The translations under genes were made by a program, and so were the position numbers. From assembly GCA_029866005.1 (NCBI GenBank), contig JARXAE010000003.1, forward strand, positions 186,001-250,000: a stretch of 64,000 nt of DNA. Reading direction: 5' to 3'. Shown one piece after another: positions 35,545 through 50,471 of the stretch (position 1 is the first letter of the stretch; every line of letters starts with the position of its first letter). Source of the DNA: Fimbriimonas sp. (lineage in GTDB: Bacteria > Armatimonadota > Fimbriimonadia > Fimbriimonadales > Fimbriimonadaceae). Under the pieces are notes generated by a model. The model had not been told where the DNA came from and did not search any database. It saw only the letters and a list, made by a program, of their open reading frames with translations.

Positions 35545-35571
35545 GCTTTAGTCGGACCCTAAGGGAAATTT

Positions 35572-35606
35572 GATGCCTCGGGGTCCGAGACCCCGCAGGC
35601 TAAAGC
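35572..35606 (-). repeat. Repeat module A, copy 1
   Basis: A 35-base element of the A family (also at 36992, 49303, 49962 and 50351). It forms a hairpin with a 7-bp core stem (CGGGGTC with GACCCCG), a short outer stem GCCT/AGGC offset by one unpaired base, and a 3-base loop. The core stem here is CGGGGTC/GACCCCG, whereas other copies have CGGGATC/GATCCCG, a compensatory change that keeps the pairing. Confidence 0.85.
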
Positions 35607-35645
35607 TTAGAGCACCCTCACATACAAAAATCAATAGGATGAGTT

Positions 35646-35771
35646 ATGATCGGAGGAGGAAGAAACCGTCTTATGAAAAGGTGGACCTCAAAATGGGATC
35701 ATGATAAGTTCAGCACCATATTTGCTCAATTTTGCAACGGATGGCGTCTAGTCTACGGGATACCTGGCTGA
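35646..35771 (+). CDS. 41-residue protein translationally coupled to a small membrane protein
   Basis: A short open frame (MIGGGRNRLMKRWTS ... VYGIPG) with AGGA 6 bases before its ATG. Its stop overlaps the next start as TGATG, a classic coupling junction. An internal ATG at 35673 could give a 32-residue version. The sequence is basic and rich in Trp and Arg and matches nothing I know. Support comes from the coupling geometry and the ribosome-binding site; it could also act only as a leader peptide for the downstream gene. Confidence 0.5.
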   Translation: MIGGGRNRLMKRWTSKWDHDKFSTIFAQFCNGWRLVYGIPG

Positions 35772-35983
35772 TGAATCATCTGAAGGGCTCCAAGTTGCTC
35801 GATCGACTATTACTAGCACTTGTTGTGATATTCGCGATTGGCATCGGAGTACTGGTATTCGGCGGTATCTTACGAAGCAGTGATACAAGTGGTTACTTGA
35901 TCATGTGGATTTTTGGCTACCCTATCCTATCCCTCGCCGTTTACTTGATCGCTAAACTGGTTCTAAGCTTTGTCAGGCACTAG
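35771..35983 (+). CDS. Small two-helix membrane protein
   Basis: A 70-residue protein (MNHLKGSKLLDRL ...) with two clear membrane helices (LLLALVVIFAIGIGVLVFGG and LIMWIFGYPILSLAVYLIA) joined by a short polar loop. The start at 35771 is supported by the TGATG overlap with the 41-residue frame. A B-type repeat begins 8 bases after the stop. No family is recognised. It is the first confidently coding gene of repeat island 1. Confidence 0.65.
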   Translation: MNHLKGSKLLDRLLLALVVIFAIGIGVLVFGGILRSSDTSGYLIMWIFGYPILSLAVYLIAKLVLSFVRH

Positions 35984-35993
35984 AGCCAGAGCG

Positions 35994-36019
35994 ACGAGCC
36001 ACTTGCGTGGGCTGGGTAA
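35994..36019 (+). repeat. Repeat module B, copy 1
   Basis: The stretch ACGAGCCACTTGCGTGGGC followed by GGGTAAC matches the B module seen in both orientations through both islands. It fills nearly the whole gap between two genes, ending 3 bases before the next ATG. Confidence 0.8.
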
Positions 36020-36022
36020 CGT

Positions 36023-36547
36023 ATGAGTAGGACTGAGTACAAGTTTCGACAGATTATAGGACAAGAATCCATTGATATTTCGACTCAAGGGCAGCAGTAT
36101 CTTAAGTGTAAATATCCTGAGAAATGCTTCAACATAGTCAATTCGAAAGATTTTTGGCCAATCGTGGTTTCGGAACTGAGGTTGCCAGATTCGAGTTTTG
36201 TGAATGGATTCCTCATTCACGGAGATACTCCACCACTTATTCTCAATCCGGACGAACTCCCAGGATACGAAGATGCCCTAGTGGCTTACGCGTTCCTACT
36301 CGAAGGTTGGATACGCAAACGAGGTCGTTCAGTGCCTGGATCTCCGATTGCAGACATCTCCTTTCCAAGCATTGACATGACGCGGGAGCAGGAAAACGCG
36401 TTAATAATGCGGCTGGTCGAGAGGAAGAACTATGTCCTGTTTCATTTACTCGGTGAACTGTGTGTTAATGTGAAAAGCCAGGAAATCAAGGATCGGCTTC
36501 TGAGTAGAGGGCTTGCCCGAGCCGAACAGTTTTCATGGGTGGGGTAA
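36023..36547 (+). CDS. Orphan protein of unknown function in repeat island 1
   Basis: A 174-residue soluble protein (MSRTEYKFRQIIGQESIDI ...) with no signal peptide and no motif that I recognise. It has a central PDELPGYEDALVAYAFLLEG helix and a charged C-terminal helical part. Size, composition and isolation are reminiscent of immunity-type proteins, but this is only an impression. The stop overlaps a perfect AAGGAGG ribosome-binding site for the next gene, so the two form an operon. Confidence 0.65.
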   Translation: MSRTEYKFRQIIGQESIDISTQGQQYLKCKYPEKCFNIVNSKDFWPIVVSELRLPDSSFVNGFLIHGDTPPLILNPDELPGYEDALVAYAFLLEGWIRKRGRSVPGSPIADISFPSIDMTREQENALIMRLVERKNYVLFHLLGELCVNVKSQEIKDRLLSRGLARAEQFSWVG

Positions 36548-36562
36548 GGAGGATGATTCGAT

Positions 36563-36973
36563 ATGATGTTCGAAACCGACGGTCGAAAGATGTCTTACAA
36601 GGTGACAATCTGGATTGTCGTCGTCGGCTTTCCTTTGCATCTCTTCTTGTCGACGATGGAAGTCCTTGGCCAAGCTGACACGATTCTCGGATGCCTACTC
36701 ATAGGATTTGCGGCCTGCCACTTTTGGTACATGGCGGCAAATCCTGCGGTGTTCAGAGTTGAAGATGAGTTTCGGAACATCACAAAGACTGGCCGAAATG
36801 CAATTATTTTGCCTGGTGTTTTTCGATTTGTTGAGATGGTTTCTCTCTCGAGTCTGCCCGTTGAGCCTCTTAGGTGGATGCCCTACGCGGACGCTTCTCT
36901 TTGCTTCCTGGGGGCGCTTTACCTTTGGCGCAAGATATCGATCGTGGTTCGTCGCAACACGTCGAAACAATGA
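36563..36973 (+). CDS. Orphan membrane protein in repeat island 1
   Basis: A 136-residue protein with about four membrane helices (VTIWIVVVGFPLHLFLS, ILGCLLIGFAACHFWYMA, a weaker one near FRFVEMVSL, and ASLCFLGALYLW). The ATG at 36563 lies 10 bases after AAGGAGG, the strongest Shine-Dalgarno sequence seen in the window. It is co-transcribed with the preceding orphan gene. The family is unknown. An A-module repeat starts 18 bases after the stop. Confidence 0.68.
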   Translation: MMFETDGRKMSYKVTIWIVVVGFPLHLFLSTMEVLGQADTILGCLLIGFAACHFWYMAANPAVFRVEDEFRNITKTGRNAIILPGVFRFVEMVSLSSLPVEPLRWMPYADASLCFLGALYLWRKISIVVRRNTSKQ

Positions 36974-36991
36974 CTGACTGACTAGCCCCTC

Positions 36992-37026
36992 GATGCCTCG
37001 GGATCCTCGATCCCGCAGGCTAAATC
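36992..37026 (-). repeat. Repeat module A, copy 2
   Basis: A 35-base hairpin element: CGGGATC pairs with GATCCCG around a 3-base loop, with outer GCCT/AGGC offset by one base. It is followed by a short linker and an inverted B module (37053-37072). The same A-linker-B order occurs, reversed, at 49257-49337 and 49913-49996. Confidence 0.85.
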
Positions 37027-37052
37027 AACAACCAGCTACCTCTGCTTACACG

Positions 37053-37072
37053 GCCCACGCAAGTGGCTCGCC
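37053..37072 (-). repeat. Repeat module B, left arm of a perfect inverted pair
   Basis: GCCCACGCAAGTGGCTCGCC here is the exact reverse complement of the 20 bases at 37206-37225. The pair encloses a 133-base segment that holds one microprotein gene. Confidence 0.9.
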
Positions 37073-37083
37073 GCTGGGCATCT

Positions 37084-37182
37084 CTACTTGTCCTGTCCCA
37101 ATCCCAGTTTTGTCAGCCACCAAGAGAGTGCACAGAGAACAACTATTAGAATCACCATTGCAACTAGGAGGAGTGCCTGCAT
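37084..37182 (-). CDS. 32-residue single-helix membrane microprotein
   Basis: The frame reads MQALLLVAMVILIVVLCALS, then WWLTKLGLGQDK and a stop. It is one long hydrophobic helix ending in aromatic belt residues and a charged tail. GAGGAG lies 8 bases before the ATG, an ideal ribosome-binding site on the minus strand. The gene is centred between two perfect 20-bp inverted repeats and runs opposite to its island neighbours. Short hydrophobic proteins of this type include type I toxins and membrane-enzyme modulators; no antitoxin RNA can be shown here. The coding call rests on composition plus the ribosome-binding site. Confidence 0.6.
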   Translation of the reverse strand: MQALLLVAMVILIVVLCALSWWLTKLGLGQDK

Positions 37183-37205
37183 TCAAGCTACTCCTCGTCC
37201 ACAGT

Positions 37206-37888
37206 GGCGAGCCACTTGCGTGGGCAGGACCAAGCAGAAGTAGCCGGGGTGGCACTGGTAACCGCGCCCAGAACATCTTGACGCTCTCACCGAGCCAGGT
37301 TACCAGTGAACCAACTTGGAGTCGCCAGAGCTCTGACTGAAAATCCACCCACCCCAAACTCCCAACGAGCAGGTTGACAAACACCCCGAAACTTCGCCTA
37401 GTAGGTAGATGTTCAATTCTCACGGAAGCACCCGGTCCCGCCGCGTGACCACCCGCCAACCGCAGCACCACTCGCACCGATGTCCGCTTTTCCAGATTCA
37501 ACGAAAAGCACCGACTTCACCAAAATCCCCGCCGTCGCCCTACAACTCTGAACCCAAAAGCACCGAATTCACCGACCCCCACGTTGGCCGCCGTCAAGCC
37601 GCCACGAGTCGAATTACCCCCTGTTTCCCCATCAGCCAAAACTCAGGTTCAACGAATTACCCGTCTTTCCCCCCCCTCGAGCAAAGAGGAGACCCGCTTG
37701 AACCTGATTTACCCCAATTATCCAACCCCCACAAGCACTGCCCCTTCCTGCCCATCTTATGACGACGATGGAACACATTTGAACCTGAACTGCCCCACCA
37801 ACTTTACACACGCTGACCCCAACCGTCCCCAACAAAATCAAAAAAACACACCGAGTTGAACCTAACGCCCCCATCAAAATGCGTCGCA
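37206..37888 (-). repeat. Long repeat element, copy 1 (B + C hairpin + extended region)
   Basis: About 683 bases that recur inverted at 48080-48757, roughly 90% identical by eye. From left to right it has a B module, a C hairpin (CACTGGTAACC at 37253 pairing with GGTTACCAGTG at 37298) and a C-rich region with repeated AGGTTCAA/TTGAACCT words that can pair with each other. Open frames exist in it, but indels break the frame between copies and most differences are amino-acid changing, so it is judged non-coding. Similarity ends abruptly at CATCAAAATGCGTCGCA. Confidence 0.85.
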
Positions 37889-37917
37889 GTTCTCTCTCCC
37901 GACCAACGACCGACGAT

Positions 37918-37946
37918 AAAAAAAGTGCCCCCTGGAGGGAGGGGGC
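37918..37946 (-). terminator. Rho-independent terminator of the M10-like protease gene
   Basis: On the minus strand a perfect 7-bp stem (GCCCCCT with AGGGGGC, 6-base loop) is followed by AC and seven T. It lies 35 bases past the stop of the gene ending at 37981 and marks the right edge of repeat island 1. Confidence 0.85.
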
Positions 37947-37980
37947 TGGGGTTGGGGTTAGGTTGTGCGGTCAATAAATC

Positions 37981-38736
37981 TTAGTGGTGATGATGCTCGT
38001 GCTCATCGCAGGAGCCGTAGCCAAGGAAGTGGTGCCCGTGCGGAGCATCCGCCTTCGCCACAATGCTCTCGCACTCTTCGCGGATCGCCTGAACTGTCTC
38101 GATCTCCGTCGGGTTGGGCTTCGAAACCGGCCGTCGCAAGTCAAGCGGCCCCATCAGCATCCCCACGGTGTTCACGTCGTCAAGGCCAAACATATGCCCC
38201 AACTCGTGCCCCGCGGTGTGCCGCATCTGAACCGCGTTCATCTGCTTCCCGTTCGGATCAGTTGTCCGCAAGTGAATATCCGCATTAAAAATCGGCGTCG
38301 CCTGGTTCCCTTGTCGCTCAATCGTTCGACTCCAGTTGATGTAACCCGAAACAATCGAGCCATCCAACCGAACATCTTTGCCGTACCGAATCTTAATCGT
38401 CGCCTCTTCCCCCGGCTTGGCAAGCGCAAATTTCACATCGCCGTGCAGAGCCGTCTCCCACATCTCAAATGCACCGGCCAGCGACTCCGAACAAGCCCCA
38501 ATCTGCGAAGCGGGAGTGTCGCCATAATCAACCGCGACCAAGAGCCGCTGCCCCATGAGCATCGATTCGGCATATCCCTTCGCCTGGGCCTTGTCGCCGT
38601 TCGCAATCTGTCGCCGCGCCGCATCGATCGTATCGGAAGCCTGCGGATGAACCGCCGCCCGAGCCTTGAACCCTGCATATCCGGTTGCAAACAAAAGCCC
38701 CGTAACCGCGATAACCCCAAATTGCTGAACCTTCAT
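37981..38736 (-). CDS. Secreted M10-like zinc metalloprotease
   Basis: A 251-residue protein with a signal peptide or anchor (FGVIAVTGLLFATGYAGF). The zinc-binding motif GHELGHMFGLDD (about residues 176-187) has the HExxHxxGxxD form of metzincin-like proteases (matrixin side), followed by a Met (GMLMGP) where the Met-turn is expected. The C-terminus is His-rich and ends in HEHHHH. Upstream residues include strands typical of the M10 fold (ATIKIRYGKDVRLDG). It is predicted to cleave proteins outside the cytoplasm. The ATG at 38736 fits a signal peptide. Confidence 0.82.
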   Translation of the reverse strand: MKVQQFGVIAVTGLLFATGYAGFKARAAVHPQASDTIDAARRQIANGDKAQAKGYAESMLMGQRLLVAVDYGDTPASQIGACSESLAGAFEMWETALHGDVKFALAKPGEEATIKIRYGKDVRLDGSIVSGYINWSRTIERQGNQATPIFNADIHLRTTDPNGKQMNAVQMRHTAGHELGHMFGLDDVNTVGMLMGPLDLRRPVSKPNPTEIETVQAIREECESIVAKADAPHGHHFLGYGSCDEHEHHHH

Positions 38737-38866
38737 TGTGCCTCGGGTTTGGTATTTCCCGTGTGCCAACTCGCACAGCCCTGCCCCGTTTACCAGGGTC
38801 AAAACAAACAAGCATCGGTGCTAGCTGACACCGATGCTGGCTGGTAAAAGTGATGCCCGGCAAGCC

Positions 38867-39973
38867 TTACGGCTGTAGTTTTACGGTGTCAATCACTTTG
38901 CCTTTCGAGTCGATTTGCCGGACCGTCGCGCCGCTCCTGTCGTACTCCAGCGAAGTGAACGAGTACCCCGGAATATAAGCGGCAGTAAACGGCTTCCAGA
39001 GCTTCTTGTTGCCCGCAATCTTCTGGTCGTACAACTCAGCCCCGCCGGCCCCCGTGACAAAGTACGTCACGCCATTAATCGGTCTCGTGCGCTGGTAGTT
39101 GTGAACGTGCCCGTTGAAAACCGCCGTCACCCGACCTTGCTCAAAGATCGGAGCAACGACCTTCATGTAAACCTCATCCTTCTTTTTGTCCGAAGAGTGG
39201 AACGGCGGATGGTGGAACGCAACAAAACGCCACTTGTAATTCGCGCCCTTTGCAAGCTCCTGCTTCAGCCAGGTCTGCGGCCCAGTGCCTTTCCAGTTGA
39301 TGTAAGTGTTACTGTCAAGAATCACCCAGTATGCATCTCCGTAGCCAAAACCAAAGTTCCCCGGCCCCTTCGCCCACTTCGGCTTGAACTGTGGCAAGTG
39401 CCAGAACTTGTAGTAAGCAAGCCCATCGGGATAAGCCTTCAGATCCCGATAAGCGGTGTCATGGTTCCCAGGTGCCGCCGTGCTTGCCGTCTTGGCGAGG
39501 ATCGAACCGTAGACCGGGAAGTGATAAAGCAGATACTCGCTTTCGCGACCCCTCGGATAAACGATGTCTCCGACGTGGACGATCAGATCAGGGTCATACT
39601 TTTCGAGCTGCTTTCCCACGAGCCTTTGCCCAGGCAACCCTCGACCCGAGTCTCCAAAAACCGCGAGCCGAACTTTTCCACTCGGAAGACCATGAGCCTT
39701 GTAACTCTTCGAACCAACTGAATAAGACCAAGCCTGCCCCGGTCTGAGTCCGGAAACGACCCATTTGCGAACAAACAGGCCACGGGTGGCGAGTGAGATC
39801 GACGGCAAAGGACGTACCGTCAAGCCCTTCGCCTCAACGGGAATCTTGAGATCACCTTGCTGGATCACCTGGACGACCATCGTTCCCGGCGAAGAGGCAA
39901 GCTGCAGGTATGGCCCGGCGACTAATCCTGCCGTTGTCTGAGCCAATAAAGCGGGAACGAAAGCGGCGACCAT
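38867..39973 (-). CDS. Secreted calcineurin-like metallophosphoesterase (purple acid phosphatase-like)
   Basis: A 368-residue protein with a signal peptide (VAAFVPALLAQ). An N-terminal fibronectin-like region leads to the catalytic domain with FGDSGRG, HVGDIVYPRG, PGNHDTAY, FHHPPFHSS and NGHVHNYQR, which supply the two-metal centre. Tyr in PGNHDTAY and the fibronectin-like lead are reminiscent of purple acid phosphatases. It probably releases phosphate from extracellular esters. The start faces the divergent acyltransferase gene 21 bases away. Confidence 0.9.
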   Translation of the reverse strand: MVAAFVPALLAQTTAGLVAGPYLQLASSPGTMVVQVIQQGDLKIPVEAKGLTVRPLPSISLATRGLFVRKWVVSGLRPGQAWSYSVGSKSYKAHGLPSGKVRLAVFGDSGRGLPGQRLVGKQLEKYDPDLIVHVGDIVYPRGRESEYLLYHFPVYGSILAKTASTAAPGNHDTAYRDLKAYPDGLAYYKFWHLPQFKPKWAKGPGNFGFGYGDAYWVILDSNTYINWKGTGPQTWLKQELAKGANYKWRFVAFHHPPFHSSDKKKDEVYMKVVAPIFEQGRVTAVFNGHVHNYQRTRPINGVTYFVTGAGGAELYDQKIAGNKKLWKPFTAAYIPGYSFTSLEYDRSGATVRQIDSKGKVIDTVKLQP

Positions 39974-39984
39974 CTCGCTCAGTT

Positions 39985-39990
39985 TATACT
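39985..39990 (+). promoter_or_regulatory. -10 element directly before the start codon of the GNAT/FemAB-like gene
   Basis: TATACT lies only 4 bases before the ATG at 39995. A transcript starting at the normal distance would begin at or just inside the start codon. This is one of the clearest examples of the leaderless arrangement found across the window. Confidence 0.65.
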
Positions 39991-39994
39991 AGCT

Positions 39995-41029
39995 ATGATG
40001 CCGAAGCTGGAAATCGTGAAGGGCTTCTCGGTACATACCCTCTCGGGTGGCACAATCTTCCAAACACCCGAGTGGCAGCAGAACTGGCTGACCCACTATG
40101 GCGATCCCTCTCGAGTCATCAGCATTCAGGTGAGCGAGGGCAACGACCTCGTCGGCCTCTGGAATCTTTACCGTCACCGCTCGGGCTGGCGCTCCATCCG
40201 ACCCCTTGGCGTTGGACCAAGCGACTATCTTGGACCGGTGGGCGCCTATAACGAGTTGTTTCGGGAAGCAATTCATAGCTTCAACCAAAAGTCGCTCGTA
40301 GATATTCACCAGCTTCCCTCGGATCATCCGGCGCTGGGTGCTCTCGAAGGTCACGAAGCGATTGAGCAAGCCAAGTGCCTTGTGCTGGACCTTCCTGCCA
40401 ATTTTGATGACTACGTCAAAACCCTAAGCAAGAGTCTTCGCTACGATGTGAGGCGTATCAACGGAAAAGCCCTCCAGGAGAAAGGAGCGAGGGTCGAATG
40501 GGTGACCCCGGAGACAGTTGATAAGTTCGCCGATGCATTCTTCGAACTCCACAAGCTCCGCTGGAAGCAGCGGGGATTACCCGGAGCGTTCTTCGGCAAG
40601 GCAGAGCGCTTCCAGCGCGATTGGCTATGGCTCGCCGCCAGCCAGCAGAAGCTTTGGATGAACTTGCTGATCGCCGATGGGAAGCCGGTCGGTTGCGTCT
40701 ATGCCATGCGCCACGAGCAGACCTGCTACTTCTATCAAGCGGGAATGGACCCTGCCGCCGCCAGTCTGTCGCCGGGCACCGTCTTAGTCGCTCAAACCAT
40801 CGAGCGAGCGATCGAAGAAGGGTGTACCGAATTTGACTTCATGCGTGGCGATGAGCCGTACAAACGCAGGTGGAAACCAACCCGGGAACGAACCAATTTT
40901 CGGATCATTCTGCCACCTCAAACCGCCCTCACGAGGGCCGGCTATGCGTGGAACAAGGCGGCGTGGCGAGTAGAATCAAAGGTAAGAGAGCGCGTTGAGG
41001 GGAAAAGTCTCCGCAACCCTAAGCCTTAA
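39995..41029 (+). CDS. GNAT/FemAB-like acyltransferase (CelD family)
   Basis: A 344-residue protein. The N-terminal WQQNWLTHYGDPSRVISIQV and the central LSKSLRYDVRRINGKALQEKG are typical of the acetyltransferase_6/CelD group, and the C-terminal half has a second GNAT fold (VYAMRHEQTCYFYQAGMDP, FDFMRGDEPYKRRW). Such enzymes often modify exopolysaccharide or cell-wall precursors. It is followed 31 bases later by a glycosyltransferase gene on the same strand, consistent with surface-polymer work. Confidence 0.88.
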   Translation: MMPKLEIVKGFSVHTLSGGTIFQTPEWQQNWLTHYGDPSRVISIQVSEGNDLVGLWNLYRHRSGWRSIRPLGVGPSDYLGPVGAYNELFREAIHSFNQKSLVDIHQLPSDHPALGALEGHEAIEQAKCLVLDLPANFDDYVKTLSKSLRYDVRRINGKALQEKGARVEWVTPETVDKFADAFFELHKLRWKQRGLPGAFFGKAERFQRDWLWLAASQQKLWMNLLIADGKPVGCVYAMRHEQTCYFYQAGMDPAAASLSPGTVLVAQTIERAIEEGCTEFDFMRGDEPYKRRWKPTRERTNFRIILPPQTALTRAGYAWNKAAWRVESKVRERVEGKSLRNPKP

Positions 41030-41060
41030 AACTGACGTTAAACAAACGTAAGAAGCAAAG

Positions 41061-41741
41061 TTGACTAAACGTGTAGCGATCATTATTCCGGCCTATAACG
41101 AGGCCTCGCGCATCGCCACTGTACTCAAGGCGGTGAAGGCTTCTTCGTATGCGCACGAGATCATTGTTGTGAACGATGGCAGTGCTGACAACACCGCCGA
41201 GGTTGTCAAGGGCATCGAAGGCGTGCACCTTGTTGATTTGGTTAAAAATGTTGGTAAAGGTGGCGCGATGGTCGCCGGCGTCAGCTCGACGCTCGCTCCG
41301 ATTATTGCGTTTGTTGATGCAGATCTCGAAGGGATTGAGCCAGGTCATATCGATTCAATCGTCCTCCCTCTCATTCGAGGAGAATGCGACATGTGTGTCG
41401 GTGTTTTCCGCGGAGGGAAGATCGGCAGTAATGCCGCGATGGCAGTAACGCCCTTTCTGAGTGGACAGCGGGCGATGAAGAGAGAGCTTTTCGAGAGCAT
41501 CCCATACATCGGGGAGCTACGGTACGGGGTAGAAGTTGCGATCACCGAAGCGGTGCGGAAGAAGCGCTCAAAAGTAAAGCGAGTGATCCTGCGAGGCGTC
41601 AGCAATTGCTTTAAGGAAGAGAAGTTGGGCCTGGTTAAGGGACTTCAGGCACGAACAAAAATGTATCGCGACATCCGAGAAGCGATGGTGCGAACCAGAA
41701 AAAAGAAACGTGTCCAGCGCAAGAAATGGCTTGACCGTTAA
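41061..41741 (+). CDS. Family 2 glycosyltransferase
   Basis: A 226-residue GT-A enzyme: VAIIIPAYNEASRI at the N-terminus, EIIVVNDGSADNT for nucleotide-sugar binding, then GKGGAMVAG and the FVDADLEG segment with the DxD-like metal site. It lacks the C-terminal membrane helices of many relatives. It resembles small prenyl-phosphate or glucosyl-3-phosphoglycerate transferases; the donor is unknown. It starts with TTG. The end overlaps the convergent lipoprotein gene by 4 bases. Confidence 0.88.
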   Translation: MTKRVAIIIPAYNEASRIATVLKAVKASSYAHEIIVVNDGSADNTAEVVKGIEGVHLVDLVKNVGKGGAMVAGVSSTLAPIIAFVDADLEGIEPGHIDSIVLPLIRGECDMCVGVFRGGKIGSNAAMAVTPFLSGQRAMKRELFESIPYIGELRYGVEVAITEAVRKKRSKVKRVILRGVSNCFKEEKLGLVKGLQARTKMYRDIREAMVRTRKKKRVQRKKWLDR

Positions 41742-42745
41742 CTGTGCTCTTTCATCGCTTGGGCTATTTCTTTCTCTAGACGGGCTGTCTGTGTAGAATC
41801 GAAACCTTGCCAAAGTGCGCACACGACGCCCTTCTTGTTCACCAATGCACAGGTAGGAGTTGCGCTCACCATGACCCAGAAAGCTTTTTCGTCTGTAACG
41901 GAATAGTCGCCGCCGGCACCCAGCGAGACTTCGACTTTGGCCGCCCCTAACTGCGTCTTCGAGAGCCAGCTCCGCATTCCGGCTGAAATAGGATCTGCAG
42001 GATCTGAGAAAAGGACTAGAGACCAGTTATCACCAAGTTTTTTGGAGCTGTTTTTCTTCATTTTCGAAAAATCAAGCACCTGTCCGTTGAAGAGGCTCAT
42101 GGGTTCCGTGGGTAGGAACGCCATCACGTATCCATCTGGAACTCTTACCGTGAAGTCGCTGTCCTGCAAGCTTGCATTAAGTTCCCATTTGCTAATCATA
42201 AACTCCCCCGATGGACCCAAGAATCGCTTGAGCTCACCTTCTGTGCTGAGTTCAAACTCGAATTTCTGAGGTCCAGCTTGAGTCTGAACAAACGTAGTCC
42301 AAACTTCGTTTCCGCCCGCCTTTGTGAGCTTCCAATCCTTTGACGGAGCGATTTGAAGCGGCGTGACTCCGTACGCAAATAGGCATGCGGTCACCTGAGG
42401 AGCAACGAGCTTTCCAATGCTGGGGAAGAATTTCCCCCCCCAAGGAATGGTTGCGTACTTGTTTGCATCTCCGTCAACTTCCAGCCATCCGTCCTTATCG
42501 TTGACCAGTGCAATCAGTTTTTGGGAAGTCGTTTTGGCCTGGTTAGGAAGCTTGCGAAGAATCGAAACCGGCCGGGTTTTAGAGCCCAACTTCAAAGTTG
42601 CTTCCGCGCGGATGCTTTTCGCGCTACTGATCTGCTTAGTGAACTGTTCCAGGGAGCTTCCTTTCTGGCATCCGGACGTGAGAAGTCCGGCAACGATTGA
42701 CATCGCACACATGGTCATTATTTGCTCTAATCTTGCCAGTCGCAT
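41738..42745 (-). CDS. Lipoprotein with LolA-like and thioredoxin-like parts
   Basis: A 335-residue protein with the lipobox LLTSGC near residue 25. The first part (AEATLKLGSKTRPVSILRK, TTFVQTQAGPQKFEFEL) resembles LolA/LppX lipid-carrying folds. The last ~100 residues (WSLVLFSDPADPISAGMRSW ... TPTCALVNKKGVVCALW) resemble a thioredoxin-like domain without an active CxxC. The precise role is unknown. It is transcribed divergently from cheW, 52 bases apart. The ATG at 42745 places the lipobox correctly. Confidence 0.72.
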   Translation of the reverse strand: MRLARLEQIMTMCAMSIVAGLLTSGCQKGSSLEQFTKQISSAKSIRAEATLKLGSKTRPVSILRKLPNQAKTTSQKLIALVNDKDGWLEVDGDANKYATIPWGGKFFPSIGKLVAPQVTACLFAYGVTPLQIAPSKDWKLTKAGGNEVWTTFVQTQAGPQKFEFELSTEGELKRFLGPSGEFMISKWELNASLQDSDFTVRVPDGYVMAFLPTEPMSLFNGQVLDFSKMKKNSSKKLGDNWSLVLFSDPADPISAGMRSWLSKTQLGAAKVEVSLGAGGDYSVTDEKAFWVMVSATPTCALVNKKGVVCALWQGFDSTQTARLEKEIAQAMKEHS

Positions 42746-42797
42746 CTGGTACTTATGGCAGTATGACGCGTTTCCATCAGTGGAAAACCCTTTTCGG

Positions 42798-43253: not shown

Positions 43254-43850
43254 CCGCCTTTGGATTTCCGCTAAGGCATCGGCGCAAAGTGCGTCCGGTG
43301 CCTTAGTCGCGTCTAGGATGACCCATCTTTCGGGTTCTTGACTTGCAAGGTCCAGAAACCCTGCACGAACTTTTCGATGAAACTCTAGCGGCTCATGATC
43401 GAGACGGTTGTTGTCGCGCCCGTCTCCGATTCGTTGCAGCCCAACGACTGGGTCGAGGTCAAACAGCAGAGTCAGATGTGGTTTCAGCCCCTTTGTCGCG
43501 AAGCTGTTACCTCGCTTGAGGAAGTCGATATCGACGCCTCGCGCATACCCCTGGTAAGCAACGGAAGAGTCTGCGTGTCGATCGCAAAGAATGATGGTTC
43601 CGCTGGCGAGTGCTGGTCGGATAATCGTCTCGACATGGTTGGCTCGATCGGCGAGAAACAGAAGGAGTTCTGCTTCTGGGACGACGTCCCCTTGCTCTAA
43701 AAGCAGTGCTCGGATCTTTTTTCCAAACGACCCCGCACCTGGCTCCCTCGTGACTAACACGGAGTACCCAGCTTGCTCAAGTGCCGTCGCCAAACTGCGG
43801 ATCGCGGTCGACTTCCCCGCCCCCTCTGGCCCCTCAAACGTCACGAACAT
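43242..43850 (-). CDS. tmk: Thymidylate kinase
   Basis: A 202-residue kinase that phosphorylates dTMP to dTDP. It has the P-loop GPEGAGKST (residues 7-15), TREPGAGSFG with the family Arg-Glu-Pro, the DRHADSSVAYQG motif, and a lid region GDGRDNNRLDHE. Length is standard. The ATG at 43850 gives MFVTFEGPEG, the normal start. The divergent deacetylase-fusion gene starts 38 bases away. Confidence 0.95.
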   Translation of the reverse strand: MFVTFEGPEGAGKSTAIRSLATALEQAGYSVLVTREPGAGSFGKKIRALLLEQGDVVPEAELLLFLADRANHVETIIRPALASGTIILCDRHADSSVAYQGYARGVDIDFLKRGNSFATKGLKPHLTLLFDLDPVVGLQRIGDGRDNNRLDHEPLEFHRKVRAGFLDLASQEPERWVILDATKAPDALCADALAEIQRRLSR

Positions 43851-43888
43851 GGAACCAAAGACTACCAGCAGGACGCTACAATACTTGG

Positions 43889-45574
43889 GTGAGAAAGACG
43901 TGGCTTCTGGCAGTAGTGCTTGGTCTGGTGCTGTCCGGATGTAAGGCAGAGCAAGCCAAGGCGGCGGTTGATACGAACTCCGATTCGGGTCAGATACAGC
44001 AAGTGAGCCTTGATGAATCCAGCGGCTTCCGAGGCGAGAAGCCACTGGAAGAGGACATCTGCTTTGAAGCGCAGCAACGCCGAATTCCAGTTCTCATGTT
44101 CCACGACATCGTTGCCGAGCGAGGAAAGGGCACCCTGTGGTACGACTGCACGATCGAAGAGTTTGAGGCGATCCTGCAAGCGATTGATATCGAGGGTTTC
44201 ACCGTGATCTCATCACAGGATCTCTATGAGCACTTAACTGTCGGAAAAGAGGTGCCTGAGAAGTCGATAGTGCTCACATTTGATGATAACTATCAGAGCT
44301 TCTACGATTATGCCTGGCCCCTGCTCCAGCAATACAGTTACCCCAGCACGATGTTTGTTCATACTGGCTTTGTGGGAAGCCAACAAGGTCGTCCCAAAAT
44401 GACTTGGGATACTCTCAAGGAACTCAGACAGAACAAGCTGTTCACTGTGGGTGGTCACACAATTAATCACTTCCTCGATCTCAAAGATCGAGATATTGCA
44501 GAGCAGACAACTGAACTTGTCGATTCCAAGAAGGACATCGAGAAGAATCTTGGAATCACTGTCGATTTCCTTGCATATCCCAATGGAAGTAACAGTGAAG
44601 ATACACAACTTCTGACCAGACAGTCTAGATACAAAATGGCGTACACAATCGTCAATACTCCGGCTGAAGAATCGCCTAATATTATGGCGGTAGGGCGATA
44701 TGTACATACGAAGTATCAGGAAGCTCTTCGTGACCGAGATGGCGCAATCTTCGGACAGCCTGCCAGCATCTTTAGAACCCCGTGGAACAAGAAGTCGAAG
44801 ATCAAGTATGTCAACGAAAAGTTTGCGGGAGTTCCGCTCAAAATGACTTTCGGGGGAATGCCGTCCACCCATATGAGCCTCACAGGGCGAGAAATGGTTT
44901 CCGCCTTCGTCGAACGGGAGCAGGCACAAGCCGGCATTAACGGTGGTTTCTTTGCGATGGCGGCGATCGCATCAACCGATAACGCCATGGTTGGTCCGCT
45001 CAAAACCCCGGAAATGGATGAAGTTGCTCCGGATCAATCCCCTGAAAGGTGGGACAAAATCAACGGTCGACCGCTCGTAATCTGGAGTGGCGAGGAGTTC
45101 GCCATTCTTCCGTACATTCCGGCTCAAATGGGTAAGGAAGAGCAGTTTCAGTGGTTCATGAAGGACTATAACAACACCTTTATGGCCGGAGTTTGGCTGG
45201 TCCACAACGGCGTACCTCAACCGCGCGAGTTCCAGAATGTTGTTGGTGCAAAAGACATTCAAGATCTGCGGCGCCGGGCATTTATCGGGGTCACCAAGGA
45301 TGGGCAATTCGTCGCGGGCGCTGCTGTCTCCTCAGTTTCGAGCGAGAAGCTTGCCGTGGCCATCGCCGAAGCCGGTGTCGAAGAAGCTGTCCTGATTGAC
45401 TCAGGCTTTTCTACGTCGCTTGTCTTCGACGGGAAGATTAAGGCCTCTGGACACTCCTCCGCTAAGGATCCCTCTCGCCCAGTCCCCCACGCAATCACGA
45501 TCAAGGGGATCGTGGACGAGACGACGCAGGACGATGAGGACCTTGCGGTTCAGCAGCCTAAACGGCGAAGATGA
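43889..45574 (+). CDS. Lipoprotein fusion: polysaccharide deacetylase plus phosphodiester glycosidase (NAGPA-like)
   Basis: A 561-residue lipoprotein (LGLVLSGC). Residues about 60-280 form a NodB-type deacetylase: VLMFHDIV, VLTFDDNYQSF (Asp pair near 131) and GGHTINH (190-194). Residues about 300-550 form a phosphodiester glycosidase domain like mammalian uncovering enzyme: GINGGFFAM, an RRRAFIGVTKDG strand, and IDSGFSTSLVFDG. The combination suggests trimming and deacetylation of a phosphate-linked or N-acetylated surface glycan. The start is GTG with TACAAT 6 bases upstream. It overlaps the next gene by 4 bases. Confidence 0.88.
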   Translation: MRKTWLLAVVLGLVLSGCKAEQAKAAVDTNSDSGQIQQVSLDESSGFRGEKPLEEDICFEAQQRRIPVLMFHDIVAERGKGTLWYDCTIEEFEAILQAIDIEGFTVISSQDLYEHLTVGKEVPEKSIVLTFDDNYQSFYDYAWPLLQQYSYPSTMFVHTGFVGSQQGRPKMTWDTLKELRQNKLFTVGGHTINHFLDLKDRDIAEQTTELVDSKKDIEKNLGITVDFLAYPNGSNSEDTQLLTRQSRYKMAYTIVNTPAEESPNIMAVGRYVHTKYQEALRDRDGAIFGQPASIFRTPWNKKSKIKYVNEKFAGVPLKMTFGGMPSTHMSLTGREMVSAFVEREQAQAGINGGFFAMAAIASTDNAMVGPLKTPEMDEVAPDQSPERWDKINGRPLVIWSGEEFAILPYIPAQMGKEEQFQWFMKDYNNTFMAGVWLVHNGVPQPREFQNVVGAKDIQDLRRRAFIGVTKDGQFVAGAAVSSVSSEKLAVAIAEAGVEEAVLIDSGFSTSLVFDGKIKASGHSSAKDPSRPVPHAITIKGIVDETTQDDEDLAVQQPKRRR

Positions 45575-45984
45575 CCTTCGAAACACTTGAACTCGTTCTG
45601 GGCCTGACGGATTCCCGACGGATTCTCATCATAGAGGATAACCTGTCCTTTGCCCTGCGCCTGCGTGGATTTCTGATCAAAAAGGATCATATCGTTCACA
45701 CCTATACTGGGGTTGAACGACAAGGTAACCGCTTACTCGGCATTGAGCCGCTTTGGCCCGAAGATCCAGACGAAATCAACCTGGGCGACTATCAAGTCTG
45801 CTTTCTGGATCATTACTTCGCCGGACGAGACTTCAATGGCTCGACCTTTCTCGGAGTTCTTGCGAACTATCCGATCAAGGTCTGCGGGATGTCTTCAGTC
45901 GATTCGGCGAACGAGTCCATGCGCCGCTGTGGTGCGCTCACTTCGCTTCGAAAAGACAAACTTGATCAGCTCTTAACGCTGTAA
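45571..45984 (+). CDS. Stand-alone response-regulator receiver-like protein
   Basis: A 137-residue protein with RRILIIEDNLSFALRLRGFL (acidic pair after strand 1), VCFLDHYFAG (candidate phosphorylation Asp), VCGMSSVDSANE (Thr/Ser position) and SLRKDKL (conserved Lys). All receiver positions appear present, without an output domain. Its start overlaps the stop of the deacetylase-fusion gene (ATGA), an odd partnership that implies co-expression. No kinase is nearby. Confidence 0.8.
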   Translation: MTFETLELVLGLTDSRRILIIEDNLSFALRLRGFLIKKDHIVHTYTGVERQGNRLLGIEPLWPEDPDEINLGDYQVCFLDHYFAGRDFNGSTFLGVLANYPIKVCGMSSVDSANESMRRCGALTSLRKDKLDQLLTL

Positions 45985-46481
45985 CGAAGTTGCACTAAGC
46001 CGCTGTCAAACGCCTCAGCGTCGAGGAGCTTCAAGGAAGTCTGTGGGAAGCCACCTGGGAACAAAGGAACTCCCTTTCCGAGCAAGACCGGGTGAACAGA
46101 GACCACGACTTCTTCAACGAGTTTGCCTTCGAGATAGCCCTTCACCAATTCACCGCCACCAACCAGCCATGAGCGCTTAACGCCCTGCTCTTTGAGCATC
46201 TTCTCCAGTTCTACCAATGACCCATTAAAATAGGCTGTGTCCGCTGTTGTGATGTCGAGCTTTTCTGAGCGGGTGACGACTAGGGTTCGCTTTCCTGAGT
46301 AAGGCCATCGGCCCATTCCACGCACGACATCGTAAGTGCCCCGACCCATGATGAGCGTGTCCACAGACTGATAGAATTCATCAAATCCATAGTCGTTGTC
46401 GGTGAACTGCCACGACAAATCATCATCGGGGCCAGCAATGTAGCCGTCGAGGCTCGTGGCGATGAAGAGAGTCGTGAGCAC
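45966..46481 (-). CDS. Dihydrofolate reductase-like / RibD C-terminal domain protein
   Basis: A 171-residue protein of the YwjB/YyaP type: LFIATSLDGYIAGPDDDLSW at the N-terminus, TLIMGRGTYDVVRGM, then WLVGGGELVKGYLE with NADPH-binding Gly residues and VHPVLLGKGVPLF. It is a putative NADPH-dependent reductase, not the housekeeping DHFR. The GTG at 46481 gives the standard start. It overlaps the receiver gene by 19 bases and is divergent from the cupin gene 54 bases away. Confidence 0.9.
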   Translation of the reverse strand: MLTTLFIATSLDGYIAGPDDDLSWQFTDNDYGFDEFYQSVDTLIMGRGTYDVVRGMGRWPYSGKRTLVVTRSEKLDITTADTAYFNGSLVELEKMLKEQGVKRSWLVGGGELVKGYLEGKLVEEVVVSVHPVLLGKGVPLFPGGFPQTSLKLLDAEAFDSGLVQLRYSVKS

Positions 46482-46535
46482 ACAAAGATGATACTCGGCA
46501 ATGCGAACCCTTGGGGCTCGTAGTACAATCCCGGC

Positions 46536-47009
46536 ATGCCGTTTTCGGGTGTCCGCAATCAACAAGAGCAAACAACGCCAGCTGTTCTCAACATTTTTGG
46601 CGACCTGGTTTCGATCAAGGTCGCCAGCGCTGAAACGGGTCATCAGTACACTGTGATCAGTGGTCAGACTCCACCGCTCGGTGGCCCTCCATTGCACCTG
46701 CACGTATCAGATTCAGAAACATTTTATGTGCTTGACGGCACCTTCATCTTTGAACTTGATGGACAGATCTTCAACGCGCATGCGGGCGACGTGGTACACA
46801 TCCAACCTGGCGTCAAGCATCTTTATCAGAATGTTGGTTCTGAACCAGGCAGATTACTTCTCGTTGTGTCCCCGGGTGGGTTGGATGATTTCTTCATCGA
46901 GCTGGATTCACTCCTCAAATCACATGCTGAGCCGCCGATGGCCGAGATCGCTGCTCTCCATGCAAAGTTCAAGATGGAGCTCCTCGGCCCTCCAATGGTC
47001 GCAAGATAA
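46536..47009 (+). CDS. Cupin-domain protein
   Basis: A 157-residue single-cupin protein. The metal-binding motif 1 is PPLHLHVSDSETFYVLDG, with two His and a Glu, and motif 2 is AGDVVHIQPGVKHLYQN with a further His. Such proteins include small dioxygenases, isomerases and ligand sensors; nothing here narrows it. TACAAT ends 6 bases before the ATG, with no ribosome-binding site, indicating a leaderless message. Confidence 0.88.
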   Translation: MPFSGVRNQQEQTTPAVLNIFGDLVSIKVASAETGHQYTVISGQTPPLGGPPLHLHVSDSETFYVLDGTFIFELDGQIFNAHAGDVVHIQPGVKHLYQNVGSEPGRLLLVVSPGGLDDFFIELDSLLKSHAEPPMAEIAALHAKFKMELLGPPMVAR

Positions 47010-47016
47010 CGAAAAA

Positions 47017-47042
47017 TCGCCCCGCTGTGATCAGCGGGGCGA
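47017..47042 (-). terminator. Rho-independent terminator of mdh
   Basis: A perfect 11-bp stem (TCGCCCCGCTG with CAGCGGGGCGA, 4-base loop) is followed on the minus strand by five T. It lies 22 bases past the mdh stop and may also end the convergent cupin transcript, where the T run is poor. Confidence 0.85.
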
Positions 47043-47064
47043 CTCTGTGTTTACATTCAGCGGA

Positions 47065-47997
47065 TTACTGAATCTGCGCCCAAATCTCTTTAAGCGAAGC
47101 TGCTGACTTGTGAAGCAACTCTTTCTCCTCTGCGCTTACGGCTGGTTCGATGATTTCGACGACACCGTGTCGTCCAACAACGGTCGGGAGGGAGAGGGAG
47201 ATGCCTTCGATTCCAAGCTTGCCACTTTGAACTGCGCTGACCGGAAGGATTGCGTGGGAGTCGAGTGCGATTGCCTCAACGACTTCCTTGATCGAAACTC
47301 CGACCGCGCGTCCTGCGCCGCCCTTGAGTCGAATGACTTCTGCGCCTGACTTACGGGTGAACTCGAACACACCCTTCACTGCCTCGGCGTCAACGCCAGG
47401 GTAGGAAGTAAGCGGGACACCTTGGGCAGTTGCGGAGGAAAGGATCGGAACCATCGTGTCGCCATGCTCGCCAAGGACGAGAGCCTTCACGTCGGGAGCC
47501 GAGAGGTTGAAGTGATCGGCCAAAAGGGATCGGAATCGAGCCGTATCAAGAACGGTTCCAAGCCCGAGAACTTGCGACTCTGGAAGAATTCCGCTCTTCG
47601 CTGCGAGGTGGGTGAGGATATCGACCGGGTTGGAAACGACCACGATGGTCGCACCCTCTGCGAGCTTGACACCTTTCAGCGATTCAAGAATGCCTTTGAA
47701 GAGGCCAACGTTTCGGTTAATGAGGTCGAGTCGGGTCTCATCTGGCTTGCGTCGAAGGCCGGCAGTGATGACCACGCAGTCGGAGCCGTTCACGATGTCG
47801 TAGGAGCTGGACGAGGTGAACTTGATGTTCGAGGTCAAGGAAGAGCCGTGTCGGAGGTCAAGTGCCTCGCCGTCTGCCATGTCGGGGTTTGCGTCCACCA
47901 ACGCGATCTCCCGAACCTTTCCACCGAGCTGGAGCGCATAAGCTGCGTCCGATCCAACCCGTCCGCCGCCGCCGATGATGCTTACCTTAAATCCCAT
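47065..47997 (-). CDS. mdh: Malate dehydrogenase, LDH-like type
   Basis: A 310-residue NAD-dependent dehydrogenase of the lactate/malate family: FKVSIIGGGGRVG (dinucleotide fold), VSNPVDILTHLAAK, GLGTVLDTARFR and the catalytic LGEHGDTMVP. The specificity loop is AGLRRKPDETR, with Arg where lactate dehydrogenases have Gln, which by family rules favours oxaloacetate/malate. The ATG at 47997 is followed upstream by repeat island 2. A mutated copy of its first 11 codons is found at 50414-50448. Confidence 0.93.
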   Translation of the reverse strand: MGFKVSIIGGGGRVGSDAAYALQLGGKVREIALVDANPDMADGEALDLRHGSSLTSNIKFTSSSSYDIVNGSDCVVITAGLRRKPDETRLDLINRNVGLFKGILESLKGVKLAEGATIVVVSNPVDILTHLAAKSGILPESQVLGLGTVLDTARFRSLLADHFNLSAPDVKALVLGEHGDTMVPILSSATAQGVPLTSYPGVDAEAVKGVFEFTRKSGAEVIRLKGGAGRAVGVSIKEVVEAIALDSHAILPVSAVQSGKLGIEGISLSLPTVVGRHGVVEIIEPAVSAEEKELLHKSAASLKEIWAQIQ

Positions 47998-48020
47998 CTT
48001 ATCTATGATTATGGCAGGTT
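47963..48020 (-). repeat. 58-bp imperfect direct repeat, left copy (mdh 5' end)
   Basis: These bases cover the first 11-12 mdh codons and 23 bases before them, and match 50414-50471 at 48 of 58 positions in the same orientation. Everything between the two copies (48021-50413) is repeat island 2. Confidence 0.8.
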
Positions 48021-48079
48021 TGGTTGGGATCGCTTTTCGTTTGTGGCTTATCGCTTATCCCGCTCAGTTGGGATAGAAG

Positions 48080-48757
48080 TGCGACGCATTTTGATGGGGG
48101 TGTTAGGTTCAACGTGGTGAGGTTTTTTTGATTTTGATGGGGACGGATGGGGTCAGCGTGTGTAGAGTTGGTGGGGCAGTTCAGGTTCAAATGTGTTCCA
48201 TCGTCGTCATAAGATGGGCAGGAAGGGGCAGTCCTTGTGGGGGTTGGATAATTGGGGTAATTCAGGTTCAAGCGGGTCTCCTCTTTGCTCGAGGGGGGGT
48301 AAAGACGGGTAATTCGTTGAACCTGAGTTTTGGCTGATGGGGTAACAGGGGGTAATTCGACTCGTGGCGGCTTGACGGCGGCCAACGTGGGAGTGGGTGA
48401 AGTCGGTGCTTTTGGATTCAGAGTTGCTGGGCGACGGCTTGGATTTCGGTGAAGTCGGTGCTTTCGTTGAACCTGGAAAAGCGAACATCGGTGCGAGTTG
48501 TGCTGAGGCTGGCGGGTGGTCACGCGGTGGGATGGGGTGCTTTTGTGAGAATTGAACATCTACCAACTAGGCGAAGTTTCGGGGTGTTTGTCAACCTGCT
48601 GGTTGGGAGTTTGGGGTTGGTGGATTTTTATACAAAGCTCTGGCAGCTCCAAGTTGGTTCACTGGTAACCTGGCTCGGTGAGAGCGTCAATACGTTCTGG
48701 GCGCGGTTACCAGTGCTACCCCGGTTACTTCCGCTTACCCCGCCCACGCGTGGCTCG
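48080..48757 (+). repeat. Long repeat element, copy 2
   Basis: Inverted relative to the copy at 37206-37888, about 90% identical by eye. It begins at TGCGACGCATTTTGATG, about 80 bases upstream of the mdh start, and carries the G-rich strand, three TTCAGGTTCAA/TTGAACCTGA-type words, two copies of GTGAAGTCGGTGCTTT about 50 bases apart, the C hairpin (48660-48670 with 48705-48715, 34-base loop) and a terminal B module. A short indel against copy 1 shifts all frames, so it is taken as non-coding. Confidence 0.85.
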
Positions 48758-48774
48758 TCTATGAGAGCACGAAT

Positions 48775-49236
48775 ATGTTAGTAACTTTGACTTTAATCTC
48801 TACCTTTCGCGACACGATCGATTTATCAACGAGAAAACTGTTGCATTTCGAGCTAGTTGCCTACTCTCAACCAATTGCAGACGTGTACCGGACAAGCTCT
48901 ACTCAGCAAAAAGCACCGTTGGCTGTCTATGATTCGAGATACAATGACCTTCGCGAGCGCGCCAAGTACCTCGACGCTTGGAAGAACTCAATGGAGAATC
49001 AACTTAGACTTGAACGAGCAAACAGTTACTTCAAAAGCAGTGGACTAGTCGTTCAGTTGATCGGTTCAAATGTCAATCGAAGTTCGCTCGAGATTCAGTC
49101 TTCCGATAGAGTGTTTACGCTCATGACAACCACTGGTGTTCTGGTTGGCAAAATTGGTTGGGATGGAGTGTTTTATCTCGATGGGGACGTGTCGAAATTG
49201 AGAGCAAGAGGAATCGAAGTTAGCATCGTTGATTAA
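48775..49236 (+). CDS. Orphan protein in repeat island 2
   Basis: A 153-residue protein of unknown family. Residues 1-12 are hydrophobic (LVTLTLIST), too short for a clear signal peptide. The middle is helical and charged (YNDLRERAKYLDAWKNSMEN), and the C-terminal half is beta-like (LVVQLIGSNVNRSSLEIQ). GAGAG lies 8 bases before the ATG. It starts 18 bases after a B module and another B module follows 20 bases after its stop. The AT-rich codon use differs from that of mdh and neighbours. Confidence 0.6.
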   Translation: MLVTLTLISTFRDTIDLSTRKLLHFELVAYSQPIADVYRTSSTQQKAPLAVYDSRYNDLRERAKYLDAWKNSMENQLRLERANSYFKSSGLVVQLIGSNVNRSSLEIQSSDRVFTLMTTTGVLVGKIGWDGVFYLDGDVSKLRARGIEVSIVD

Positions 49237-49553
49237 CGCGGCGCTGGCTACTTCCTGGCGAGCCACTGGCCTGGGCGGGGTAAGCAGAGGTAGCTGCTTG
49301 TTGATTTTGCCTGCGGGATCGAGGATCCCGCAGCATCAAAACATCACGCATGGCGATCAAGCTTCCTTTTGGCGGCATGGTTCTGAGGCGAGAACAGGAA
49401 CTCTCAGGTATTTCTAAGTTGGTTCGCTGGTAACCTGGCTCGGTGAGAGCGTCAGTATGTTCTGGGCGCGGTTACCAGTGCCACCCAGGCTACTTCTGCA
49501 TACCCCGCCCACAGAAGCGGCTCGCCTTAAGAAGATGCAAATAGAGCTCAAAG
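49237..49553. repeat. Gene-free repeat mosaic: B, A, spacer, C hairpin, inverted B
   Basis: The 317-base gap is nearly all repeat: B (49257-49296), A (49303-49337, with a variant outer stem), a 87-base spacer, the C hairpin (49425-49435 pairing with 49470-49480, one mismatch) and an inverted B (49489-49526). The spacer holds a 27-codon open frame (49350-49433) running into the C hairpin; it has no ribosome-binding site and looks like a remnant. Confidence 0.8.
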
Positions 49554-49907
49554 ATGTGTGATGCCGTAATTCATATGAAAGAAGCCGTTCAAATCCTGGC
49601 TGAATCTAGGACTGAAATGTCTGTCGAAGACCTGTCATACGTAATCGATTGGATGTTTGACGATTTCCCTCCAGAGGATTGGAGAGGTGAGCTTGAACAA
49701 GCATATTCTGAAGAAGTCGCAGAGCTATTGATAAAGATTAAAGGCCAGTTGAAATTTCTCCTTGATGATCTTGAAAAGCTATCCCCATCTGTGGGGCCAA
49801 TAGACCAAAAGTATGTAGGATCTGTGGTGGCACGGGCTGATTGGGCCGACATATGTTCTACAGCAGATAACGCACGTCAAATGATGTCCCAAGCAGGAAA
49901 AAGTTAG
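49554..49907 (+). CDS. Small acidic orphan protein in repeat island 2
   Basis: A 117-residue acidic, helix-rich protein (VEDLSYVIDWMFDDFPPEDW, KIKGQLKFLLDDLEKL) with no signal peptide and no recognised motif. The composition and size recall immunity or antitoxin proteins, but no partner toxin is visible. An internal ATG at 49575 is an alternative start. A B module begins 6 bases after the stop. Confidence 0.6.
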   Translation: MCDAVIHMKEAVQILAESRTEMSVEDLSYVIDWMFDDFPPEDWRGELEQAYSEEVAELLIKIKGQLKFLLDDLEKLSPSVGPIDQKYVGSVVARADWADICSTADNARQMMSQAGKS

Positions 49908-49912
49908 CTGTA

Positions 49913-49996
49913 GGCGGAGAGCCACTCTCGTGGGCGGGGTAAGCAGGAGTAGCTGGTTGTTGATTTAGCCTACGGGATCGAGGATCCCGAGGCATC
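49913..49996 (+). repeat. Composite repeat B + A
   Basis: B module (49913-49956, diverged in the ACTCTCG part) joined by TGTT to an A module (49962-49996, CGGGATC/GATCCCG hairpin). It fills the whole space between the flanking orphan genes, ending 12 bases before the next start. Confidence 0.85.
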
Positions 49997-50008
49997 AAGA
50001 GGATGGCA

Positions 50009-50302
50009 ATGGAAGTTACGGACTTAGCAGACAGTATTCAGTCGCACCTATCCAGGCTCCCAGGACAGTTAAAGGTCGTCTACTGCGACGAGCCGAATGG
50101 TGACTATGAACCTATCCGTATCCTTTCCTATGCAGAGGCCACTGAAGAATTCGACATTGTGTTTTTCGAAAACGGAAGAGTAAGCATAGAACGTCTTCAT
50201 TGCGGAGTGTTTGACTCAAAGATGCTCCCACCACACTCAGTGTCTGGAGAGCAGAGTCTAGTCGAGATTTTACAATTCCTTGAACTGGATGTCTCTACTT
50301 AA
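50009..50302 (+). CDS. Small acidic orphan protein in repeat island 2
   Basis: A 97-residue protein (MEVTDLADSIQSHLSRL ...) of unknown family, acidic, with alternating strands (KVVYCDEPNGDYEPIRILSY, FDIVFFENGRVSIERLHCG). The second ATG at 50009 is chosen because AAGAGG then lies 6 bases upstream, whereas it abuts the first ATG at 50003. The whole gene lies between repeat modules, starting 12 bases after an A module and ending 2 bases before a B module. Confidence 0.6.
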   Translation: MEVTDLADSIQSHLSRLPGQLKVVYCDEPNGDYEPIRILSYAEATEEFDIVFFENGRVSIERLHCGVFDSKMLPPHSVSGEQSLVEILQFLELDVST

Positions 50303-50304
50303 TC

Positions 50305-50417
50305 GGCGAGCCACTTGCGTCGGCGGGGTTAGCAGAGGTAGCTGGACGTTGATTTAGCCTGCGGGATCGAGGATCCCGAGGCATCGAAGTCCTACCCCGC
50401 TCACGCAAGTGGCCCGC
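50305..50417. repeat. 113-bp composite palindrome B-A-B'
   Basis: A B module (50305-50344), an A hairpin (50351-50385) and an inverted B (50392-50417) form one large imperfect palindrome. The outer arms share GCCACTTGCGT and GCGGGGT and pair at about 22 of 25 positions, and the A hairpin sits at the tip. It is the most complete unit of this repeat family in the window. Confidence 0.85.
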
Positions 50418-50471
50418 CGCCGCCAATGAAGCTTACCTTCAATCCCATCTCACAAGTGATTACGACAGGTT
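50414..50471 (-). pseudogene. Dead 5' fragment of mdh (right copy of 58-bp direct repeat)
   Basis: On the minus strand an ATG at 50448 opens a frame MGLKVSFIGGG, matching the mdh N-terminus MGFKVSIIGGG, then runs into a B repeat. The 23 bases upstream of the ATG also match those of mdh (for example TAATCA at the same distance). The fragment is 48/58 identical to 47963-48020. It marks where island 2 meets the ancestral upstream region of mdh. Confidence 0.78.

Follow-up and report, generated by a model that had tools for sequence, protein, structure and literature searches.

What are the palindromic repeats that stand between small genes without a recognised family at two places in this stretch of Fimbriimonas DNA, and do they carry those genes from place to place? 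The window, by which we mean the whole 64 kb analysed (C20:186001-250000 of G000, an assembly of 2.81 Mb in 38 contigs, 97% complete), was studied against a set of 20 genomes of the genus (Fimbriimonadales), among which the closest relatives of G000 by mdh protein identity are G018 (99%), G001 (97%) and G009 (90%). The set consists of assemblies, several of them fragmented and of varying completeness, and fragmentation is a caveat because assemblies tend to break at repeats. Gene calls come from a simple home-made codon-score caller. The two islands contain the following features.

35568-35606, minus strand: REP-A copy 1, a palindrome of the RAYT-A type (covariance model, folding).
35741-35983, plus strand: 80-aa membrane protein of no recognised family, GC 0.47.
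35992-36047, plus strand: truncated B copy, TIR of the RAYT-B type (covariance model).
36023-36547, plus strand: 174-aa protein of no recognised family, GC 0.46, whose last codons enter a degenerate B remnant.
36563-36973, plus strand: 136-aa membrane protein, with a homologue (83% nucleotide identity) at a different locus of G018, beside B.
36988-37026, minus strand: REP-A copy 2 (covariance model).
37020-37073, minus strand: B copy fused to A, a mosaic.
37205-37320, plus strand: B and hairpin C, the canonical RAYT-B terminal repeat.
37320-37896, plus strand: dispersed element E, which together with B and C forms one half of a 690-bp inverted repeat with 48072-48757.
47963-48020, no strand: 58 bp of the mdh start and upstream sequence, with a diverged second copy at 50414-50471.
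48072-48760, minus strand: second E with C and B, inverted relative to the first.
48775-49236, plus strand: 153-aa protein of no recognised family, GC 0.44.
49256-49341, plus strand: B-A mosaic.
49405-49527, minus strand: C and B.
49575-49907, plus strand: 110-aa protein of no recognised family, all-helical in the predicted model (pLDDT 80).
49915-50000, plus strand: B-A mosaic.
50003-50302, plus strand: 99-aa protein, with a G009 homologue (82% nucleotide and 77% amino-acid identity) directly after the 3' end of RAYT-B and a B repeat.
50304-50419, plus strand: B-A-B(inverted) mosaic.
50414-50471, no strand: second, diverged mdh start, closing the island on the right.

A possible 32-aa membrane peptide is also encoded between two B repeats (37084-37182, minus strand). 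A 92-bp stretch coding for MSYDRRRKKPSYEKVDLKMGS lies at 35613-35703 and recurs at L149:4948-5039 and L154:7441-7552; in G018 it is found beside repeats, ahead of unrelated genes.

Module A occurs five times in the window (35568-35606 and 36988-37026 on the minus strand; 49303-49341, 49962-50000 and 50351-50389 on the plus strand). Covariance models place B eight times, at 35992, 37205, 49256, 49915 and 50304 on the plus strand and at 37020, 48709 and 49474 on the minus strand, and BLAST adds a ninth copy at 50393-50418 (minus); C occurs three times (37252-37315, minus; 48653-48720 and 49418-49481, plus). An earlier note on this DNA had counted five A, at least eight B in both orientations and three C between the small genes, and had described them as tight against starts and stops. 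Both descriptions are borne out, with eight to nine B copies and with many repeats ending 1-25 bases from a gene end: B follows the stop at 50302 after 1 base and the stop at 49907 after 7 bases, and a REP-A ends 2 bases upstream of the start at 50003. B and C are adjoining halves of one terminal repeat, most B copies running on into GGGGTGGCACTG and hairpin C, and the fused modules form BIME-like mosaics. Compared with shuffled sequences, module A folds much more strongly (z = -4.3), and the whole B+C stretch no better (z = -0.5). A search of Rfam returned nothing above chance.

The earlier note had also proposed looking for the modules in the window's own genome, where A and B are indeed present outside the two islands. 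By covariance model, which underlies all our genome-wide counts, G000 carries 14 A and 17 B copies, and 13 of these 31 lie in the islands; with the BLAST copy counted, 14 of 31 fall in 64 kb of 2.81 Mb (binomial p ~2e-15 under uniform placement). The same models find 12 A and 8 B in G001 and 9 A and 22 B in G018, and confine A and B to 4-5 of the 20 species of the genus. Clusters of the B + C terminal repeat are found in G000, G018 and G009.

The nature of the modules emerges from a search for Y1 transposases across the genus. In G001, a 187-aa RAYT-A (HUH motif MTHHFHAL, catalytic-tyrosine segment EYIHMNPVRGEL) lies between two inverted copies of A, and in G018, a 167-aa RAYT-B (HUH motif MPDHVHLL, catalytic-tyrosine segment NYIHFNPVRKGL) lies between inverted copies of B, with a C-like hairpin on one side; the tyrosine of both enzymes sits in a YIHxNPVR context. 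Two RAYTs of G003, 51-57% identical to RAYT-B, have B-like repeats on their flanks. A G018 RAYT that is 52% identical to RAYT-A adjoins palindromes that keep the outer frame of A (TTAGCCTC...GAGGCATC) but differ in the core, which fits the expectation that repeats change along with their transposase. Since A flanks RAYT-A and B with C flanks RAYT-B in sister species, we assign A, B and C as REP/TIR modules; judged by sequence, A matches the repeat of a REPtron and B with C that of a TIRtron. The idea of an undescribed system without a transposase is not supported, as RAYTs of the Y1/HUH type are flanked by these same modules in sister species and the kind has already been described (PMC2817692, PMC3733652). 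No cognate RAYT for A or B was found in the G000 assembly. Its two Y1 transposases are not flanked by A or B, and the repeats of G000 are therefore without a cognate enzyme in the assembly; the enzyme may have been lost, or may be located in the missing 3% of the genome.

Two simpler explanations bear on the repeats themselves. That they are ordinary transcription terminators, repeated by chance, would account for A as a strong hairpin close to gene ends, but is very improbable given that A and B are restricted to so few species, form exact inverted flanks of RAYT genes and are fused with one another, and that B is a weak hairpin. The resemblance to a cassette array, small orphan genes with palindromes in between, had been pointed out in the earlier note together with the lack of a visible integrase. 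The lack of an integrase extends to all 20 genomes, none of which encodes a protein over the curated cut-off for the integron integrase IntI (TIGR02249); with the repeats in both orientations and RAYTs flanked by them, the probability that the islands belong to a chromosomal integron, or to another tyrosine-recombinase cassette array, is close to nil, and, as far as sequence can tell, we reject the integron reading.

Do the repeats mark sites at which gene content changes? We compared all G000 REP loci that have an identifiable counterpart in G018, counting an interval as different at a threshold of at least 300 bp and a gene. Every one of the 11 REP intervals flanked by collinear sequence differs, compared with 12 of the 77 intervals free of REPs (Fisher p = 4e-8), although REP and REP-free intervals may differ in length; three further REP loci (L130, L136, L141) lie at points where collinearity with G018 ends. 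Against G001, five of seven REP intervals are variable versus 8 of 33 REP-free ones (p = 0.03, a count that covers all but the last three pairs), and seven of nine when the two window islands are added by hand. G000 and G018 represent a comparison between species, and the turnover events can therefore be neither dated nor placed in order. The comparison of gene content proposed in the earlier note thus upholds its link between repeats and small orphan genes, such genes being gained or lost between close relatives at REP intervals. That note had named two layouts as contrary to its reading, one in which relatives keep the same genes in the same order with the repeats confined to the two islands, the other in which genome-wide terminators have no linkage to orphan genes. 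Neither describes fully what we observe: gene content and order are not shared by the relatives, and the repeats, although they occur outside the islands as well, keep their link to variable genes.

The window is collinear with G018:C1, reversed, and both islands occupy variable sites within this shared frame. At the mdh site, the right island of G000 is replaced by a different 220-aa gene in G018 and by nothing in G001. At the site of the left island of G000, between the sigma factor and matrixin genes, G018 has a repeat-free stretch of 6.3 kb with different genes, and in G001 different genes come after an A repeat. Further variable REP sites are katG-317aa...hisC, sigE...epimerase, rpsB...390aa, 550aa...173/195aa and a methyltransferase site. 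Among them, the sigE...epimerase interval (L135, L160, L167) holds PADLOC candidates that differ from genome to genome, PDC-S32 in G000, PDC-M65B in G018 and PDC-S26 in G001, and the 550-aa site holds a 1366-aa RHS protein, a 132-aa orphan and three B copies in G000 as against a 140-aa orphan and a B-RAYT-B unit in G018. RHS/YD-like fragments, named by their likeness to RHS repeats, lie beside repeats at several other loci; the 1366-aa protein is the one RHS assignment confirmed with Pfam.

Genes at the hot spots are small and often AT-rich, and comprise unassigned families, RHS fragments and candidate defence genes. Across REP copies in general the shift is modest (REP-adjacent genes versus others, 143 versus 212 aa and GC 0.526 versus 0.549), many copies adjoin ordinary genes, and one REP-A site (G000:C16) is kept together with its genes in G001. 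We rejected the stronger proposition that all REP-adjacent genes are small orphans on the ground of this modest shift, the length effect of which is not significant without the window. The six island genes have a GC of 0.44-0.50, against 0.546 for the window, and none has a match over the curated cut-off in Pfam, NCBIfam or PADLOC. The 110-aa protein weakly matches SCO4402, below the cut-off, and its predicted model has no fold match in the PDB; the model of the 99-aa protein (pLDDT 47) is too poor for use. At a guess, some window genes could be orphan immunity genes.

Taken together, we consider it probable, with good confidence, that the modules belong to two RAYT lineages (A to RAYT-A, B and C to RAYT-B) as their non-autonomous REP/TIR repeats, and that the two islands, with their BIME-like mosaics, are among roughly a dozen chromosomal hot spots of accessory-gene turnover in the sister species. 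We propose that RAYTs now absent from the G000 assembly spread the repeats, that copies would build up at spots already tolerant of insertion, and that their presence there may add homology for recombination.

Could the repeats instead be the boundaries of moving genes? When the six island genes, with repeats removed, were searched for in the relatives, two of the six were found at other loci: G018 has the 136-aa gene and G009 the 99-aa gene, each within ~40 bases of a B repeat, and at the G009 locus a RAYT-B 3' end comes first. A RAYT could conceivably make its cuts at two repeats and carry off the single-stranded DNA in between together with its gene, since cleavage by TnpA-REP enzymes in vitro occurs on the 5' or the 3' side of REPs (PMC8266576). 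In the window, the block with the 99-aa gene fills the space between a REP-A and the B that follows, and in G009 it adjoins RAYT-B and B; a one-gene segment of 693 bp in G018, corresponding to 13 bp in G000, starts beside the outer edge of a B repeat; and the block with the 136-aa gene begins inside a degenerate B remnant. We nevertheless regard such cassettes as unlikely. Repeats adjoining gene ends would passively yield the same flush edges, neither target duplications nor circular junctions were seen, and over 16 segment-genome cases the distance from repeat to segment edge is not significantly short relative to random intergenic placement (combined p = 0.066). Segment edges thus do not match repeat edges beyond chance, and on this value we prefer to see the repeats as passengers or as sites of recombination rather than as agents of active capture. 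The broader claim, that the RAYT/TIR system transposes small accessory genes and defence genes in repeat-bounded units from one fixed chromosomal hot spot to another, is, in our judgement, quite unlikely; if it were true, REP/TIR repeats would be vehicles of gene exchange, beyond selfish intergenic repeats.

The whole contents of a hot spot could be swapped by homologous recombination involving the repeats and the conserved genes on either side, with the 84-bp B-A mosaics and the 690-bp copies that include E as arms. Two features absent from the earlier note concern this possibility: an inverted repeat of 690 bp (37208-37896 and 48072-48757, 92% identity, C included), and the 58-bp mdh-start copies (47963-48020 and 50414-50471, 83% identical) that flank the right island. 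G001, where the mdh site is empty, has a single copy. The outer mdh copy shares 88% identity with the G018 sequence and 83% with its counterpart in the window, which would fit an arrival with donor DNA; the hot spots, moreover, combine collinear flanks with differing interiors. Against this, most repeat copies are short and diverged, and the segment between the inverted E copies is not inverted relative to G018. Recombination of this kind is a real possibility, though short of a probable one. A separate candidate, that the 10 kb lying between both E copies had been inverted, was rejected, as this segment is collinear with G018.

Element E (37320-37896 and 48072-48650) has conserved ends and internal TTGAACCTGA-like repeats, the inverted pair flanking a 10-kb core segment; further copies and lone ends occur elsewhere in G000, G018 and G001, and an Rfam search with E gave no match. 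WD40-repeat genes with a similar signal peptide stand beside E or REP at two G000 loci and one G001 locus (L130:4473-6497, L133:5117-6094, L168:3703-4659), with a tandem pair in G000. At L142, a five-gene block (the start of a DinB-like gene and small membrane proteins) is tandemly duplicated, with REP-A inside.

What is the relevance of this arrangement? The host role of RAYTs is an open question in the field, and here the repeats of two RAYT lineages coincide with sites of gene gain and loss that include candidate phage-defence genes. Should the pattern hold in isolates, REP/TIR repeats could serve as pointers to hot spots of accessory and defence genes, and the capture of genes by RAYTs would become open to direct test. 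In the open-licence literature, we found no description of RAYTs in connection with Fimbriimonas and none of gene capture by RAYTs.

Known systems share the elements of this arrangement to different degrees. REPs are usually read as markers of stable DNA. A REPtron consists of a RAYT (TnpA-REP) with flanking REPs, together with BIMEs (Nunvar et al., PMC2817692; PMC3116915), and the likeness extends to a Y1/HUH RAYT between inverted palindromes, additional intergenic copies and module mosaics in both orientations. Unlike REPs that number in the hundreds, A has a low count of 9-14 copies per genome, and the copies here lie at gene-content hot spots; A lacks the GTAG tag, the feet of its palindrome reading GATG and TTAG (the foot of C has GTGG), so we do not claim membership of the GTAG superfamily. 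RAYT-B, with its long terminal inverted repeats of B and hairpin C that also occur as dispersed clusters, resembles the TIRtron/TIRYT of Di Nocera et al. (PMC3733652), but the GGGGWSAS motif was not recognised in B on inspection by eye. RHS fragments and small orphan genes beside repeats at several loci recall RHS/polymorphic toxin loci with orphan immunity genes (PMC3482391), from which the window differs in that its genes have no family match over curated cut-offs and an immunity role could be demonstrated for none of them. In the P. fluorescens group, where the distribution of REPs has likewise been set against strain-specific genes, REPs are characteristic of old, stable DNA, and REP deserts harbour the strain-specific genes (PMC3390384); the pattern in the present lineage is reversed, REP intervals being the variable ones. 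The kind of repeat is thus known, its phylogenetic setting is new, and its link to gene turnover is unusual.
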